Assembly (NCBI GenBank): GCA_903872185.1
Contig: CAIQJL010000127.1
Location: 1 to 37,129, forward strand
Source: an uncultured Bacteroidota bacterium
GTDB lineage: Bacteria > Bacteroidota > Bacteroidia > Bacteroidales > GWA2-32-17
Direction of reading: 5' to 3'
DNA: 37,129 nucleotides
Shown: piece by piece, positions 28,914 to 36,966 of the stretch
Position numbering within the stretch: the stretch's first letter is position 1
Layout: every line of letters starts with the position of its first letter
Notes under the pieces: generated by a model
What the model was told of the DNA's origin: nothing
Database searches by the model: none
The model's input: only the letters and a program-made list of their open reading frames with translations
Position numbers and translations under genes: made by a program

Positions 28914-30026
28914 TTAGCTTTTCTTATTTTCTGAACTCTTGTAAACAACTTCTGTTTGTTTTCTTATCGATTCATCATGAATTAACTGCAGGATTTGTTT
29001 AATAAAATCATTATCAAGGCCAAGTTTTAAGCCTTGTTCGACTCTAGTTTCAATAATTTCTTTCCATCTCCGAAGCTGAAGAATGGATATATTGTTATGG
29101 CTTTTATAAAGTCCGATTTCTTCAACAACTTTCATTCGCTGAATTAATAATTCTAATAGTTGGTAATCTATGGAATCAATTTTTGAGCGAAAAGTCTCAA
29201 GTTTATCAATTATCTCAATATCGTTAATATTTACCTGACGGAAATGTAATGAATTCAGTAAATCATTTAATTCAGTTGGTTTTAATTGTTGCATTTTATC
29301 GCTTAAAGCTTCGATAGGAGATATGTGACTCTCAATCATTAAGCCATCAAAAGTAAGATCTAATGCTTTTTGCGAAATATCTTTAATGAAATCTGTATGT
29401 CCGGAAATATGACTAGGATCGCATAAAATTGGCAGGTTTGGGTAACGAGTCATTAATTCAATTGCAATTTCCCATTTGGGAATATTTCTTAATGATGTTT
29501 TTTCGAAAGGGAAAAAACCTCGGTGTATTGCTGCAATTTTATTTACCCCGGATTGTGAGATACGCTCTATAGCTCCAATCCATAAGTCAATATCTGGGTT
29601 AATAGGGTTTTTAACAAGTACAGGACAACTACAATTATGCAAACTTTCTGCAATTTGTTGTACTGAAAAAGGGTTGGAAGTTGTTCTTGCTCCAATCCAA
29701 AGCACATCAATACCAGCATCTAAACAGTCTTTAACATGTTCGGGAGTTGCAACTTCTACAGCAATTTTTAAATTTGTAATCTGCTTAACTTTTTTAAGCC
29801 ATTTTAATGCTTTTTTTCCGGCACCTTCAAAACTTCCAGGGCGAGTTCGCGGTTTCCAAACGCCAGCTCTGAAAATTGAAACGTTAGGAATTTTAGAAAT
29901 AGCTTCGGCAGTAGTTAATACCTGATTTTCATTTTCGGCACTGCATGGTCCGGCAATAATTAATGGTGTTTGAATTTTTTCTTCAAACCATTGATCAATA
30001 GGTAATATGTTTAATGTATCTGCCAT
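28914..30026 (-). CDS. Bifunctional DAHP synthase/chorismate mutase
   Basis: A 370-residue fusion for aromatic amino acid synthesis. Residues 1-265 are a type I-beta (KDO8P-like) DAHP synthase: IAGPCSAEN, RAGVWKPRTRPGSFEGAG, VATPEHV, WIGARTTSNPF, LVKNPINPD, AAIHRGF, CDPSHISGH and MIESHISP. Residues about 270-350 are an AroQ-type chorismate mutase (ETFRSKIDSIDYQLLELLIQR, then KVVEEIGLYK). Chorismate mutase often feedback-controls the synthase in such fusions. It is a single gene with a TAnnTTTG box 11 bases before the start, so a very short leader. Confidence 0.94.
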   Translation of the reverse strand: MADTLNILPIDQWFEEKIQTPLIIAGPCSAENENQVLTTAEAISKIPNVSIFRAGVWKPRTRPGSFEGAGKKALKWLKKVKQITNLKIAVEVATPEHVKDCLDAGIDVLWIGARTTSNPFSVQQIAESLHNCSCPVLVKNPINPDIDLWIGAIERISQSGVNKIAAIHRGFFPFEKTSLRNIPKWEIAIELMTRYPNLPILCDPSHISGHTDFIKDISQKALDLTFDGLMIESHISPIEALSDKMQQLKPTELNDLLNSLHFRQVNINDIEIIDKLETFRSKIDSIDYQLLELLIQRMKVVEEIGLYKSHNNISILQLRRWKEIIETRVEQGLKLGLDNDFIKQILQLIHDESIRKQTEVVYKSSENKKS

Positions 30027-30155: not shown

Positions 30156-32621
30156 ATGAAAAATATATTATCTTTTATTCTTTTAATATGCTCATTAAGT
30201 ATGTTAGCTGCTCCATTTAATGGGCAGATAAAGCAGTTTAAACAACCAGATGGGAGTTCTGTAGATTTGAAATTATTCGGAACCGAATTATATATGCGTG
30301 CCGAAGGACTTGATGGGTATACGCTTATAAGAGATAAAAATACAAACTGGATTTGTTATGCAAATATTTCAAATGATGGAACTGAATTAATTTCTACTGG
30401 AATTGTCTATAATGGAAAAAAAGATAATGCTTCAACTTTAAAAAATAATCTTGATTTTCCAAAACATATTGATATCTCTAAAAAAGCTATTGAAAATAAC
30501 ATTCTGAAAAATAAAGAAAAATCAGGCCTTAATAAAAAAGTACCTGAGAATAATGTAAAGACAGCACCACATCAGGTAATAGGAAATATCAGAGGACTTT
30601 GTGTTGTAGTTGATTTTTCTGATGAACCGCATACTTTGCCTATTTCGGAATTTCAAGATTTTTGTAATAATTTAACTTATAATAATTATGGTAACAATGG
30701 GTCATTAAGGACTTATTATTCTGATGTGTCGGGTGGTTTAGTCGATTATCAGAATGTTGTTTATGGTTATTATCGTGCACCATTAACTTTTGCCGACTAT
30801 GAACAAATGCCATTTGCACAAGGTGCTCAGGAAATATTAGGTTTGGCTTTAAATTGGATAGAATCAACAGGTTTTGATTTTTCTACATTAACAACTAACC
30901 CTGATGGTAGTATAATGGCAATAAATTTAATGTATACCGGAGCTGCTCAAAACTGGTCGCAGGGAATGTGGTATCATCAAGGATATTATGATAGTTTTAG
31001 CGCAGACGGAGTAACATCTGGAGATTATAATTGTTCGCCTGCAAATAATCCTTTAGGGTTAGCTACTGTTGTTCATGAAAATGGTCATATGATTGGAAAA
31101 TGGCCAGATACATATAAATATAATTCTGATACAGGTCCTGATGGTATTGGTGCATTTGATTTAATGTGTTGGTATGGTGATGAGTTTAATCCTGTTTTAC
31201 CAAATCCTCATTTTTGGTCAAATGCAGGATGGGGAAAAGTTGTTGATGTTACCAATTTTAATGGTTTAAATTCTGATACAGTTAATTCTTTAACTTGTTA
31301 TAAATACAAAAATTTAAATGATACAAATGAGTTTTTTCTTTTAGAAAATAGAAATCAAACAGGCAGAAGTTTATTTATAGAAGATAATGGATTAACAATA
31401 TGGCATATTGATAGGATGGGTGATAATCAAACAACTCACCATGAAGTTTATCTGGTTCATGCTAATGATGATATATTGAATCATTCAGACGCATGTTTTC
31501 ATTCAGGATTTAACAACGAATACGGAATTTCAACTACTCCAAATACTTTATTTTTTAATGGTAATCCGAGTGGTCTAAGAGTTTGGAATATTGGACCTGT
31601 AAATAATATTATGACATATAAATTAGGTGCAGGACAGGCAGCTCCTACATTTAATCTATCATATGTTAGCATTACCGGAGATGGCAATTCAAATGGTTTT
31701 ATGGAACCTGGTGAGTATGGAAATATTAATATTAATGCCAGTAATTATGGACAACTTAATTCTGCTAATTCAATTGTTACTTGTTCAGCTATTGGTGCTA
31801 ATTCTGGATTTGTAACAGTTAATAATCCTACAATTAATGCAGGAGTTATAAATGTTTCTCAAACAATTCCGATAAGTTTTAACATAACTATAGCACCTGG
31901 TACTCCAATAGGAACAAGTATTGAATTAAAATTTGAGATTTCTGATGGAACCTATTCTACTTATTTTACAAAATATTTTATTGTAGGTGTACAGGTAATA
32001 ATATCTAATCAACAAATTGAAACATGTTCTGCAATTTTCTATGATGCCGGTGGATATGTTTCTAATTACAGTAATAATACAGATTATGTAACAACATTCA
32101 TTGCTCCTTCTTCGACTAATCCAGTTAAAGCTAGTTTTTCGTCATTTGATTTAGAGTTTGAAGCAAATTGCGGATATGATTATTTGAATATTTATAATGG
32201 AACGTCAACAGCTTCTCCATTAATTGGTACTTATTGTGGTACAAATTCTCCTGGTATTGTTACTTCTACTAATTTATCTGGAGCATTAACCTTCGAATTT
32301 CATGCTGATCCTGGTGTTACAGGATCAGGATGGATAGCTTTTATTTCATGTGTGGGAATAACTGGAATTAATGATATTGAAAAGGAAAATCAGTTTCAAA
32401 TTTTTCCAAACCCTTCAAATGGATTATATAATTTAAATATTGATAACAAAAATCAAGTAGCAGTTTCGATAACAGATATTCTTGGCAAAGAAATATTGTT
32501 TAATGAAAAACAAATTGAAGGCAATTTGTCAATTGATATATCTGGCAATCCAAATGGAATATATTTGTTGAAAATCAAAACTGACAAAGAAGTATTCTTT
32601 AGTAAATTAGTAAAAGAATAA
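30156..32621 (+). CDS. T9SS-exported M6-like metalloprotease with CUB domain
   Basis: An 821-residue secreted protein. A signal peptide (ending about residue 19) is followed by a propeptide-like region; the M6 (immune inhibitor A-type) peptidase core runs about 140-490, with zinc-binding H307-E-N-G-H311 and W-P-D318 close by. The usual spacing is H-E-x-x-H-x4-P-D, so this has one extra residue. A strand-rich domain (500-610) and a CUB-like domain follow (623-732; cysteines 624, 672, 694, 732; YDYLNIYNG). A T9SS type A sorting domain ends it (746-821; F-Q-I-F-P-N-P, D-I-L-G-K-E, G-I-Y-L-L-K). It should be exported across the outer membrane and anchored or released, digesting proteins outside. 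Two hairpins follow the stop directly. Confidence 0.88.
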   Translation: MKNILSFILLICSLSMLAAPFNGQIKQFKQPDGSSVDLKLFGTELYMRAEGLDGYTLIRDKNTNWICYANISNDGTELISTGIVYNGKKDNASTLKNNLDFPKHIDISKKAIENNILKNKEKSGLNKKVPENNVKTAPHQVIGNIRGLCVVVDFSDEPHTLPISEFQDFCNNLTYNNYGNNGSLRTYYSDVSGGLVDYQNVVYGYYRAPLTFADYEQMPFAQGAQEILGLALNWIESTGFDFSTLTTNPDGSIMAINLMYTGAAQNWSQGMWYHQGYYDSFSADGVTSGDYNCSPANNPLGLATVVHENGHMIGKWPDTYKYNSDTGPDGIGAFDLMCWYGDEFNPVLPNPHFWSNAGWGKVVDVTNFNGLNSDTVNSLTCYKYKNLNDTNEFFLLENRNQTGRSLFIEDNGLTIWHIDRMGDNQTTHHEVYLVHANDDILNHSDACFHSGFNNEYGISTTPNTLFFNGNPSGLRVWNIGPVNNIMTYKLGAGQAAPTFNLSYVSITGDGNSNGFMEPGEYGNININASNYGQLNSANSIVTCSAIGANSGFVTVNNPTINAGVINVSQTIPISFNITIAPGTPIGTSIELKFEISDGTYSTYFTKYFIVGVQVIISNQQIETCSAIFYDAGGYVSNYSNNTDYVTTFIAPSSTNPVKASFSSFDLEFEANCGYDYLNIYNGTSTASPLIGTYCGTNSPGIVTSTNLSGALTFEFHADPGVTGSGWIAFISCVGITGINDIEKENQFQIFPNPSNGLYNLNIDNKNQVAVSITDILGKEILFNEKQIEGNLSIDISGNPNGIYLLKIKTDKEVFFSKLVKE

Positions 32622-32757: not shown

Positions 32758-33225
32758 TTAGTGGCATCCACAACCTTGTGGCATTAAATTATTTGGATCT
32801 AATGGCTGTTTTATAGTTGCAAATGGTCTTTTATCTATTATTTTATATACTGTTTTGATTCCATGGTTAACACAATTTAAGCATACTTCTTCGGAATAAG
32901 TTTTTACAAAAACTTTATTATCATGTGTTTTAATTTTTTTGCTGAAAATTAAATATTCTTTATTCATTTTAAAAGTAGTATCAGAAGTTTCAATCTGCAT
33001 TTTCATGTGACGTGTGCCTTTCTGAATTTCTGTTAAATCAAATTCTATTAACAATCTTATTTCATCTGAACATTCATTATAAGTTGGTAACTGGTATTTA
33101 CTTTTTAAAACTCCTGTAAATATCATATCAGAATTTTTAAACATTCTTAAAAATGTAGAGTCGGCTAATTGTGCATTAGAATAGTAGCTAGAAATTAATA
33201 TTATTGTAAATATCAAATAACGCAT
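32758..33225 (-). CDS. Small secreted protein (TIMP/netrin-like?), coupled to the serine hydrolase
   Basis: A 155-residue exported protein with a signal peptide ending YSNAQ. The pattern S-D-M-I-F-T-G-V-L-K-S, then EFDLTEIQKG, and a strand ending Y-L-I-F-S-K recall the beta-barrel TIMP-like/netrin-type domain in which an exported protein first describes a secretion 'cost' strand followed by K-E-Y-L-V-F. The resemblance is weak. Four cysteines lie in the C-terminal third (EEVCLNCVNH and QGCGCH), a possible disulfide or metal site. Its ATG overlaps the stop of the serine hydrolase as TAATG, so translation is likely coupled. Function unknown. Confidence 0.6.
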   Translation of the reverse strand: MRYLIFTIILISSYYSNAQLADSTFLRMFKNSDMIFTGVLKSKYQLPTYNECSDEIRLLIEFDLTEIQKGTRHMKMQIETSDTTFKMNKEYLIFSKKIKTHDNKVFVKTYSEEVCLNCVNHGIKTVYKIIDKRPFATIKQPLDPNNLMPQGCGCH

Positions 33226-34766
33226 TAGTGTTGTATGTTTTCCTGAATTCTTTTAAAAGTAAGTTCGGTAAAATCGAAATCAGGATTTGGTACATCTATT
33301 TTAAATTCATCAACTTCAGCATTTTGATTTAAAATAAAGTTAACTTTTCCTTTTGGTAAAGAGGGGAAATTTTTAAATTCAACAACGAAAGTATCATATT
33401 GCCAATGTTCAAGTACCGAGAAAAAATCGGGAGCTGGAACAAATTGTAAATTTAATTTTCCATCTTTAAGAGTAATTGTTGCATTACCATATAAATCTCC
33501 TCCATAAGTTCCGCAATATTTTTCGAGTGGTAAAGTGGTTTTAGAATTTTTATTTCTTTTTTCTTCGGCTTCTTTTTCTTCTTTTATTTTGTTTTCTTCG
33601 TTGGTCTTAACATATTTCACCAATATGGAACTATAATCTTTTCCTTCAACATTAAAAAATCTATCCATAATACTATACATTAATGTATATGGAAGATAAT
33701 TTATACTATTTGTTAAAATAACAAATCCCAGCTTTTCTTCTGGAACTAATACAACTTGAGAAATCATTCCATCTAATCCGCCACTGTGATTTATTACTTT
33801 TCTACCATGGTAATCGAATAAATCCCATCCTAAACCATAGCTATGAAAATGCATTGATGGAAACATATAGTCATCAAATTTTGAAATATCTTCTACAGTT
33901 TGTGCCGACCACATTTCTCGTTGTGCATCTTTTGTAAAATACAAATGATTTTCTTGTGTGCCGTTATTTAATTGCATTTTAATCCACTTGCTCATATCAT
34001 TTATAGTAGAATTTATTCCACCTGCAGGTGCAATGTTATCCCAGCTAATATATTTTACTGTAACAGTTTTTCCATTGTTTTTTGCGTGTGGAATTGCTAA
34101 ATTTTTATATTCAACATGTTTTTTAATTGTTGTATTAGTATTTTTCATTCCAAGTGGCTCAAAAAACTTTTCTTTAATGTAATCATCATAACTTTTACCA
34201 GTAACTTTTGGAATAATTTCTCCAGCGGTTAAAACCATTAAATTTGAATAACCATAATGACTACGAAAACTATAAACGGGTTTTAAATATTTAACTCTTT
34301 TAATAATTTCTTCTCTAGTGTATGTTGTTGCATCCCAAACTAAATCGCCACTAAAAGTTTCCAATCCGCTTCTGTGACAGAGTAAATCTCTTATTGTCAT
34401 TTCATGAGTTACAAATGGATCGTACATTTCAAAATAAGGAATATAGTCTGTAACTTTATCATCCCATTTAATTTTTCCTTCATCAACTAAAGTAGCAAGA
34501 GCAGCGGCTGTAAATGCTTTTGTATTACTCGCAATTCCAAACATTGTGTTTTCATCTACTTTTTCTGGTTTTCCAATTTCTCTTACACCAAAACCTTTTG
34601 CGAATATTAAAGTATCGTTTTTGACTATACCGACAGCCATACCAGGTATTTCCCATTCTGTCATACACTTCTGAATATAAGTTTCTAATTTTTGAAGATC
34701 TGGTTTTTGTGCAAGAACATTAGTTAATGCAAACAGAAAAGTAATAAAAAATATAAATTTTCGCAT
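33225..34766 (-). CDS. Serine hydrolase, class C beta-lactamase/DD-peptidase family, with DUF3471
   Basis: A 513-residue exported serine hydrolase (beta-lactamase family, Pfam 'Beta-lactamase'). The signal peptide ends at VLAQ20. The catalytic motifs are S80-N-T-K83, Y173-S-N175 and H327-S-G-G330. Residues about 412-510 form a DUF3471-like C-terminal beta domain (Y-C-G-T-Y and WQYDTFVVEF). These proteins in Bacteroidetes include DD-peptidases, esterases and D-amino-acid amidases; true antibiotic resistance is unlikely to be inferred from sequence alone. An E/K-rich low-complexity linker (about 395-408) separates the domains. First gene of a two-gene unit. Confidence 0.88.
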   Translation of the reverse strand: MRKFIFFITFLFALTNVLAQKPDLQKLETYIQKCMTEWEIPGMAVGIVKNDTLIFAKGFGVREIGKPEKVDENTMFGIASNTKAFTAAALATLVDEGKIKWDDKVTDYIPYFEMYDPFVTHEMTIRDLLCHRSGLETFSGDLVWDATTYTREEIIKRVKYLKPVYSFRSHYGYSNLMVLTAGEIIPKVTGKSYDDYIKEKFFEPLGMKNTNTTIKKHVEYKNLAIPHAKNNGKTVTVKYISWDNIAPAGGINSTINDMSKWIKMQLNNGTQENHLYFTKDAQREMWSAQTVEDISKFDDYMFPSMHFHSYGLGWDLFDYHGRKVINHSGGLDGMISQVVLVPEEKLGFVILTNSINYLPYTLMYSIMDRFFNVEGKDYSSILVKYVKTNEENKIKEEKEAEEKRNKNSKTTLPLEKYCGTYGGDLYGNATITLKDGKLNLQFVPAPDFFSVLEHWQYDTFVVEFKNFPSLPKGKVNFILNQNAEVDEFKIDVPNPDFDFTELTFKRIQENIQH

Positions 34767-34865: not shown

Positions 34866-35057
34866 TTACTTTGGAGCTACTGTGCTATCAACTGTAGTTG
34901 TTACAGTAGAGTCAATAGTTGTGTTAAGATCGTTAAGAGCTTGATCTAATTGTGCATTTAAAGAATCAAGTGATTTAATATCACCTTCTGAAGGACCACC
35001 ACATGATGCTAAAGCAAACATAGAAGCTACGAAAAGAACAAACATTACTTTTTTCAT
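34866..35057 (-). CDS. Small Thr/Asp-rich lipoprotein
   Basis: A 63-residue predicted lipoprotein. MKKVMFVLFVASMFALAS and Cys19 make a textbook lipoprotein signal (lipobox LASC). The mature part is 45 residues, beginning GGPSEGDI, then heptad-like leucines (DSLNAQLDQALNDLN) and a Thr/Val/Asp tail. A short coiled-coil stretch could make it an oligomeric envelope spacer, in the manner of Lpp, though no homology is claimed. It has its own terminator and a long upstream region. Confidence 0.72.
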   Translation of the reverse strand: MKKVMFVLFVASMFALASCGGPSEGDIKSLDSLNAQLDQALNDLNTTIDSTVTTTVDSTVAPK

Positions 35058-35180: not shown

Positions 35181-35321
35181 CAATTATATAAAAATTAGCC
35201 TATTGTGAAAGGAAATTATTTTCAAGAAAATATGATTTTAAAAAATTTGTTAAATTTTGAATAATAATTTAGACTAGTAGGGTTACTTTTTTAAAAATTT
35301 AATATAAAAGAACGAAAACGG

Positions 35322-35906
35322 ATGAAATTGGGTAATTACTGGAGCGAAGCAGAATTATTGCAAGGAGTTAGAGATAATAACGAACATGCAATTAAAACTA
35401 TTTATAAGCTTCATTTTCCAACAGTTGAAAATTTTATCCGTCAAAATGGAGGCTCGGTGCAGGATGCAAAAGATGTGTTTCAAGATGGTTTTTTAGTTCT
35501 TTATCGTAATGTAAAAAATGCTGATTTTATTCTTGAGTGCAAGATTAAAACTTACATTTATTCAGTTTGTCGTAGAATTTGGCTTACCGAGTTGAAGCGA
35601 AAAAATAAAGTTCCTTCAATAGTTAACGAGCTTGATGAATATGTAAATGTTGATGAAATAGGTATTGAAGAGTATAATGAGCATGAAATGAAATTATCGC
35701 ATTTGTCGCAATGCTTGGTTTTATTAGGTGAACCTTGCAGTTCTTTGCTTTCTGATTTCTATTTAAATAGTTTATCGATGCAGGAAATTGCAAAAAAAAT
35801 GGGATACACAAATGCTGATAATGCAAAAACTCAAAAGTATAAATGTCTTTTGCGTTTGAAAAAAATATTTTTTGAAAAAGAAGTTTTGAAAAAGGAGACA
35901 ATATAA
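35322..35906 (+). CDS. ECF-type RNA polymerase sigma-70 factor
   Basis: A 194-residue sigma-70 family factor with regions 2 and 4 only, the extracytoplasmic-function layout. Region 2 spans about 10-95, with A-K-D-V-F-Q-D-G-F and Y-S-V-C-R-R-I-W-L-T-E-L-K-R for -10 recognition. Region 4 spans about 125-183, with the helix-turn-helix SMQEIAKKMGYTNADNAKTQ reading the -35 box. A helical linker joins them. It belongs with Bacteroidetes ECF factors paired with membrane partners. Only one base separates it from the next gene, which looks like its membrane-bound partner, so it probably answers an envelope signal. Its own promoter may be autoregulated. Confidence 0.9.
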   Translation: MKLGNYWSEAELLQGVRDNNEHAIKTIYKLHFPTVENFIRQNGGSVQDAKDVFQDGFLVLYRNVKNADFILECKIKTYIYSVCRRIWLTELKRKNKVPSIVNELDEYVNVDEIGIEEYNEHEMKLSHLSQCLVLLGEPCSSLLSDFYLNSLSMQEIAKKMGYTNADNAKTQKYKCLLRLKKIFFEKEVLKKETI

Positions 35907-35907
35907 A

Positions 35908-36966
35908 ATGGACTTACTAAGATTAACAGAATTAAGCGAAAAGTATTCTGAAAATTCACTTACAGAAAGTGAGCGTGCGGAATTATTTTCTGCAATAAAT
36001 TCTGATTCCGATTTAAAATTACAATTTGAAGAAAACATTTCACTTTTTAATAATTTACAATCATTAAAAGTTGAAAAACTTTCAAGAAAATGGTTCGAAG
36101 AAGTTGAGAACGAAAAGAAAAATGAAAAAATAACTTCGTTAAATTTTAGAACAAGAATTATTCATTATGCCGCAGTTGCTGCTGTTAGTTTTTTTGCTGT
36201 AGCAGGTACTCTTTATTTCTCTGGTTGGTTTTCTTATAAAAAACACTTACAGGCATATACACAATTAGGAAATAATGTAACATCTCTCACCAATAATCAA
36301 AAGTCGATGTGGGATGCTTTTTTCTCACCAGAAAAATCTGAATATTCATTTACAGCAGGAACTGGCTTTGCAATTTCATCAGAAGGATATATTATTACCA
36401 GTTTTCACGTTGTTAGAGATTTTGATTCTATTATAGTTGTAAATAATATTGACTCACTAATTCGATATCATGCAGAATTAGTATATAATAATATAGAATC
36501 TGATGTAGCTATATTAAAAATTGCTGATTCTACTTTTTCTTCTTTTGGAAAAATTCCATATAAGTTTAATAGTAAGAATTGTAATCTTGGAGAGTATGTT
36601 TATACTTTAGGTTATTCAAAACGTGATGTTGTTTTTGGCGAAGGATCTGTAAGTTCATTTACTGGTTATAATGAAGATTCTTCTACAATTCAGGTTTCTA
36701 TTCCCTCAAATCCTGGTAATAGTGGCGGTCCGCTTTTAAATTCTAAAGGTGATATTATTGGAATGTTATGTGCAAAGAATAATGAGATTGAAGGCGCTAC
36801 TTTTGCAATAAGATCAGATTTATTGATTAATTTAGTTGATAGTCTTAATTCCAGATTAGATGATAAGAAAATTGTATTAAATAAATACAATAATATTTCT
36901 ACACTTGATAGACCTATGCAAATTAAGAAAATTAAATCCTTAATTTTTAGGGTTGAGGCATATTAG
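35908..36966 (+). CDS. Anti-sigma-like segment fused to membrane-anchored trypsin-like protease
   Basis: A 352-residue single-pass protein. The cytoplasmic N-terminus (1-82) starts LTELSEKYSENSLTESERAEL, which resembles the start of FecR-like and zinc-free anti-sigma domains (a short helix, N-S-L-T-x-x-E-R, then L-x-x-x-I). A membrane helix spans about 85-106. The outer part (145-320) is a trypsin-like S1C (DegP-like) protease with H167 in SFHVV, D199 in SDVAILKI and S272 in NPGNSGGPLL. No PDZ domain follows. One base after the ECF sigma gene, it probably binds the sigma factor inside and processes a substrate, or itself, outside. The anti-sigma role is inferred from position and weak resemblance. 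Confidence 0.8.
   Translation: MDLLRLTELSEKYSENSLTESERAELFSAINSDSDLKLQFEENISLFNNLQSLKVEKLSRKWFEEVENEKKNEKITSLNFRTRIIHYAAVAAVSFFAVAGTLYFSGWFSYKKHLQAYTQLGNNVTSLTNNQKSMWDAFFSPEKSEYSFTAGTGFAISSEGYIITSFHVVRDFDSIIVVNNIDSLIRYHAELVYNNIESDVAILKIADSTFSSFGKIPYKFNSKNCNLGEYVYTLGYSKRDVVFGEGSVSSFTGYNEDSSTIQVSIPSNPGNSGGPLLNSKGDIIGMLCAKNNEIEGATFAIRSDLLINLVDSLNSRLDDKKIVLNKYNNISTLDRPMQIKKIKSLIFRVEAY

Follow-up and report, generated by a model that had tools for sequence, protein, structure and literature searches.

In the last 2 kb of the window, the whole 37,129-nucleotide stretch analyzed here, a gene for an ECF sigma factor is followed on the same strand by a gene for a 352-aa transmembrane protein that appears to fuse an anti-sigma domain to an HtrA-type protease (Table 1). 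The original prediction described the sigma gene as ending one base before the gene of a 352-residue protein, and the ORF coordinates are exact; the gap is the single base at position 35907. The sigma factor is the only member of its subfamily in the source genome at an E value of ≤1e−12, and it may already belong to a numbered ECF group.

Table 1. Positions of genes, putative promoters, and protein regions at the sigma-protease locus, numbered from the first nucleotide of the window
Feature	Position	Strand	Remarks
Small lipoprotein, 63 aa, lipobox ASC, predicted to be coregulated	34866..35057	-	ORF; counterparts at other loci
Second, divergent promoter copy (putative), GGGTTAC-N16-TATTAA	35099..35127	-	Faces the 63-aa lipoprotein gene
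Putative ECF promoter of the sigma-protease operon, GGGTTAC-N16-TATAAA (TATTAA in relatives)	35280..35308	+	Kept in 5 genomes of the genus
ECF sigma factor, 194 aa	35322..35906	+	Sigma70_r2 2e−9 (Pfam), sigma70-ECF 3.2e−18 (NCBIfam)
Predicted anti-sigma/HtrA-type protease fusion, transmembrane, 352 aa	35908..36966	+	ATG at 35908, stop ends at 36966
Residues 1 to 77: predicted cytoplasmic zinc-less anti-sigma domain, three predicted helices, net charge −6	35908..36138	+	Profiles, NCBIfam, hhalign, model
Residues about 84 to 104: single transmembrane helix	36157..36219	+	Hydropathy; helix 80 to 104 in the model
Residues 105 to 148: periplasmic linker with long helix 110 to 139, proposed cleavage region	36220..36351	+	Least conserved region
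Residues 149 to 305: HtrA/DegS-like trypsin-fold protease, no PDZ	36352..36822	+	Trypsin_2 7.8e−24; triad 79/79
Catalytic triad codons H167, D199, S272	36406..36408, 36502..36504, 36721..36723	+	Within the protease domain
Residues 335 to 352: conserved C-terminal helix-strand tail	36910..36963	+	Also in secreted protease relatives without the anti-sigma domain

The 352-aa protein was originally read as having an acidic N terminus, one membrane helix, and a periplasmic S1C protease with the triad H167/D199/S272 and no PDZ domain, and these features hold. The mean net charge of the N-terminal domain over the orthologs is −6.1, close to that of the protein itself, and hydropathy reveals one hydrophobic segment only. 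An AlphaFold2 model (39 orthologs) places helices at residues 3 to 14, 20 to 32, and 34 to 72, followed by the transmembrane helix, the linker helix, a trypsin-like beta fold, and a short helix and strand at the C terminus. Mean pLDDT is 80, with values of about 90 up to residue 50 and of 50 to 67 in the linker. In addition to the Pfam match to Trypsin_2, the protein matches the NCBIfam models of DegP/HtrA (4.1e−24) and DegS (1.1e−15), both within the protease domain. H167 lies in TSFHVV, D199 in ESDVAIL, and S272 in PGNSGGP, and the protein has the trypsin-like domain, His-Asp-Ser triad, and GNSGG motif by which S1C proteases are recognized. Because the triad is unchanged in all 79 distinct orthologs, the protease is very probably active. 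Neither Pfam nor NCBIfam gave a PDZ match in the 352-aa protein, which ends in the short conserved tail instead; the protease domain is therefore S1C-like, but the protein is not a DegS ortholog.

Is the pairing of this protease with the sigma factor more than a coincidence of gene order? A search for the same pair in other Bacteroidetes, suggested in the original prediction, gave 88 paired loci, some of which represent one genome reached via two collections, with 77 distinct sigma sequences. Each of the nine other genomes from the genus and family encodes a full-length ortholog of the protease, as do two further genomes from the order, and a scan of contigs recovered such orthologs from Bacteroidales MAGs, Pedobacter, Mucilaginibacter, Pontibacter, Chryseosolibacter, and Chitinophagaceae. 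Among 151 Sphingobacteriaceae genomes, 136 encode an ortholog, with one match per genome. Wherever the DNA upstream of a full-length ortholog could be read, an ECF sigma gene of the same subfamily immediately precedes it in the same orientation, at a distance of −98 to +110 bp; the sole full-length ortholog without a sigma gene (L049) begins at a contig edge. No such sigma gene lies beside the matches to HtrA and to secreted proteases, which lack the N-terminal domain. In 395 sampled genomes of the phylum, a full-length protease and a sigma factor scoring above 220 bits occurred in the identical 29 genomes, with a gap from 221 to 180 bits between the paired sigma factors and the next sigma factor. 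Homologues that commonly lack an adjacent sigma gene, one of the two outcomes named at the outset as speaking against an anti-sigma function, were thus not seen among full-length proteins with readable upstream DNA. Mirror-tree analysis of covariation gave partial correlations of 0.60 and 0.61 and did not distinguish the N-terminal domain from the protease domain. Judging from these comparisons, the pairing is not due to chance, because the two genes, their order, the catalytic triad, and the promoter described below are kept across genomes of Bacteroidales, Sphingobacteriales, Cytophagales, and Chitinophagales.

The N-terminal domain is best described as a zinc-less relative of the class I (zf-HC2/RskA-type) anti-sigma domains, and this assignment runs mainly through its relatives. 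The comparison with anti-sigma families that had been proposed for it was successful in NCBIfam, where NF047528 matches the 352-aa protein at 7.7e−4, and unsuccessful in Pfam, which gave no match for the N-terminal part of the protein itself. Among 39 orthologs, the NCBIfam anti-sigma models PRK13920, NF052375, and NF047528 match 15, 14, and 8 proteins, respectively. When N-terminal fragments were searched in isolation, NF052375 matched 4 of 10 at an E value of <0.05 and a fifth at 0.073, the best match (3.4e−7) covering residues 13 to 108 of ortholog L041. At an E value of ≤1e−6, NF052375 had no match in 41 close relatives; the known model therefore misses this branch. A profile of the N-terminal domain (A6) was searched against 3,065 ORFs, most of them near the studied loci, and its specificity holds for that set and not for whole proteomes: its matches were limited to the orthologs, a fragment of one ortholog, and 14 other proteins, and the gene for each of the 14 immediately follows a related ECF sigma gene. 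Two of the 14 exceed the Pfam gathering score for zf-HC2, the zinc anti-sigma domain, and profile-profile comparison with the N-terminal domains of sister anti-sigma proteins by hhalign gave 97.9%. A sequence search of the PDB with the profile returned only helical look-alikes (PPAR, E value of ≥0.005), which we read as chance.

The HxxxCxxC zinc motif is absent from the 352-aa protein and its orthologs. Many class I anti-sigma domains lack this motif; its absence therefore excludes only the zinc subset. Like class I members, the 352-aa protein is encoded beside its ECF sigma factor and apparently cotranscribed with it, at 88 loci and with one conserved promoter in front, and it has a homologous N-terminal helical domain according to profile, profile-profile, and NCBIfam matches, without a direct Pfam match. 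The anti-sigma reading, a guess when first made, is now well supported by the strict pairing and by the homology of the N-terminal domain to the domains that follow sister ECF sigma factors, and on these grounds we consider it highly probable that the 352-aa protein is an anti-sigma factor.

The next-closest ECF sigma factors in other genomes are mostly followed immediately by a single-pass protein with a similar N-terminal domain and a different periplasmic part. These sister pairs (L219 to L221, L227 to L236, and L238), from Bacteroidetes and allied groups, share with the pair described here the order of a related sigma factor, a related N-terminal domain, and one transmembrane helix. However, no protease is present in their periplasmic parts, which were judged by eye to be TPR-like or left unassigned, and some of the sister proteins keep a CxxC zinc motif. 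At three further loci (L222, L224, and L226), related ECF sigma genes are followed by a gene for a small thioredoxin-like secreted protein (WCPVC, WCNVC, and WCSVC, respectively) and by no anti-sigma protein.

A promoter and a regulon of small lipoproteins are additions to the original reading. The element (G)GGTTAC-N16/17-TATTAA lies upstream of 68 of the 77 distinct sigma genes, compared with 0.02 expected from shuffled upstream regions. It is kept in the five genomes of the genus, in which most of the DNA further upstream is not conserved. The exact pattern occurs at 68 sites in 37 whole genomes versus 7 for the reversed control. We consider it highly probable that the promoter in front of the sigma gene is autoregulatory. 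A divergent small lipoprotein gene is present at 67 of the 76 loci with enough upstream DNA, in 41 cases directly behind a strict promoter match; the encoded proteins have 60 to 75 aa and often occur in tandem copies behind the promoter. From this arrangement, we predict an autoregulated ECF sigma factor with a regulon of small envelope lipoproteins. The 63-aa lipoprotein in the window and its relatives (L197 to L210) form lipoprotein families; in many relatives, the proteins are rich in D, S, T, and K and are encoded in two or three tandem copies that each have their own GGGTTAC promoter. No other neighboring genes are conserved across families at the sigma-protease loci. In several Chitinophagaceae, a distal promoter site precedes the gene for a 96-aa AMPK1_CBM/CBM48-like protein, and further small lipoprotein genes also lie behind distal sites; some distal sites look like chance. 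The 96-aa protein, found behind the promoter in five Chitinophagaceae genomes (L176, L178, L179, L182, and L184), has no evident signal peptide and would be an unexpected, possibly cytoplasmic target of an envelope sigma factor.

How does this protein compare with known systems? Its nearest precedent is RsgI9 of Clostridium thermocellum, an anti-sigma factor that likewise crosses the membrane once and bears an S1C-peptidase-like domain on the extracytoplasmic side (PMC12203970). However, RsgI9 belongs to the SigI system as an orphan, and its cytosolic domain is beta-barrel-like, whereas the protein described here has an ECF sigma partner and a helical, class I-type domain; Pfam and NCBIfam gave no match to the RsgI domain, and the partner is not a SigI. 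Moreover, the peptidase-like domain of RsgI9 is described as cellulose binding, with autocleavage assigned to the periplasmic domain (PMC12203970), whereas the triad is invariant in the 79 orthologs of our protein. The RseA/DegS/RseP pathway of sigma-E and the MucA/AlgW pathway share with our system the single-pass anti-sigma factor, the DegS-like protease domain, and RseP, but in those pathways the protease (DegS or AlgW) is a protein of its own with a PDZ domain, whereas in our system it lacks PDZ and is fused to the predicted anti-sigma domain, an arrangement that would function as RseA and DegS combined in a single chain. HtrAw of Brevibacillus shares the N-terminal transmembrane anchor and the HtrA protease, but it has a PDZ domain and neither an anti-sigma domain nor a sigma partner. 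Full-text literature searches, with incomplete coverage of subscription journals, returned no description of an anti-sigma/protease fusion.

We hypothesize that the 352-aa protein acts as an anti-sigma factor, contains its own site 1-type protease, and, with a subsequent RseP step, controls an autoregulated lipoprotein regulon, a model to which we assign a probability of about 0.55. The N-terminal three-helix domain, having lost its zinc motif, would hold the sigma factor at the inner face of the membrane, and the PDZ-less periplasmic HtrA-type protease would replace the separate site 1 protease of RseA-type systems. An unfolded or mislocalized envelope protein could serve as the trigger by engaging the protease, which would then clip the linker between the membrane and the protease domain, most likely that of a neighboring copy in trans. 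RseP, which is encoded in the source genome and present in 4/4 genomes tested, would next cut the stub within the membrane, and cytoplasmic proteolysis would free the sigma factor. Freed sigma factor would use GGGTTAC-N16-TATTAA to transcribe the operon that encodes it and the divergent small lipoprotein genes, of which there are one to three, and the lipoproteins would presumably be protective in the envelope. Comparative sequence analysis supports the architecture, the strict pairing, the homology of the N-terminal domain, the triad, the promoter, the lipoprotein targets, and the presence of RseP. We see about even odds that the sigma factor is released through cleavage of the 352-aa protein by its own protease domain or that of another copy. 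Self-cleavage in the linker is plausible because there are precedents: in Brevibacillus HtrAw, the N-terminal membrane anchor is removed by autoprocessing in trans, and only with substrate bound (PMC5359297), and in RsgI anti-sigma factors autocleavage takes the place of site 1 cleavage and is followed by RseP and ClpXP (PMC12203970). More tentatively, the locus could encode an envelope stress system with a single component: an anti-sigma factor that doubles as its site 1 protease and, when the PDZ-less protease engages a substrate, cleaves neighboring copies in trans. The freed sigma factor would then flood the envelope with the tiny lipoproteins, which may in turn act on the protease as substrates or inhibitors and close the loop.

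The protease could instead act on other envelope proteins, with the anti-sigma factor releasing the sigma factor through a change in shape or oligomeric state and without self-cleavage, or after a first cut by a separate protease. We regard this as a less probable but serious explanation. The linker, the least conserved part of the protein, has no conserved cleavage motif among the orthologs, and the source genome encodes a separate HtrA (C202). In addition, the protease module together with the conserved C-terminal tail is found in signal peptide-bearing, secreted proteins without the anti-sigma domain; the main job of the protease may therefore be on envelope substrates, with signaling by occupancy. 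However, the membrane-tethered HtrA for which there is a precedent processes itself (PMC5359297), and RseP is present, whose substrates generally require a prior site 1 cut (PMC7593790), both of which speak against this alternative.

Two further explanations dispense with an anti-sigma function. If the N-terminal domain did not bind the sigma factor, the protease would be just a membrane-anchored effector under sigma control, the alternative raised in the original prediction, for which a shared operon and promoter would be expected as well; this seems improbable to us, since the sigma factor and the protease are never separated and the N-terminal domain is specific to proteins encoded directly downstream of ECF sigma genes and related to zf-HC2 domains. 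ECF sigma partners act positively in some systems, and the sequence data leave the sign of regulation free, such that the 352-aa protein might be a positive cofactor needed by the sigma factor, as for some FecR-regulated sigma factors. The zf-HC2 and RskA-like families, however, are negative regulators, and we consider a positive role very improbable. An anti-sigma factor that carries its own first protease remains our preferred reading.

Class I anti-sigma domains were found beside 6% of Bacteroidetes ECF sigma factors, compared with 32% on average, and other classes were suggested to dominate (PMC7406223). The family described here may belong to the anti-sigma part missing from that survey; its diverged, zinc-less domain is largely missed by standard models, and profile A6 could find anti-sigma factors in Bacteroidetes that Pfam misses. 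In Sphingobacteriaceae, the sigma factor, anti-sigma factor, promoter, and predicted regulon form a nearly universal set. Sensor, brake, and first protease may share one chain, and this can be tested in culturable soil bacteria.

Several minor observations concern the protein and the rest of the window. A second C-terminal match in the source genome (C59:2-115) was rejected as a second copy of the gene; its 38 residues, 100% identical at a contig edge, were taken to represent a contig overlap. Weak matches to the defense protease Avs1b, to SLATT, and to viral proteases were judged to reflect generic trypsin-fold or helix similarity; no defense context was seen around the locus, and a search of plasmids gave one match only, to the protease domain. 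Near the sigma-protease pair, positions 33225 to 34766 (minus strand) encode a beta-lactamase-family serine hydrolase with DUF3471, which has the same position in L215. Positions 28914 to 30026 (minus strand) encode an apparent fused DAHP synthase/chorismate mutase, read off the sequence alone. The 821-aa secreted protein encoded at positions 30156 to 32621 (plus strand) has an HENGH motif, a CUB domain, and a type IX secretion C-terminal tail and is probably an M6-like metalloprotease.
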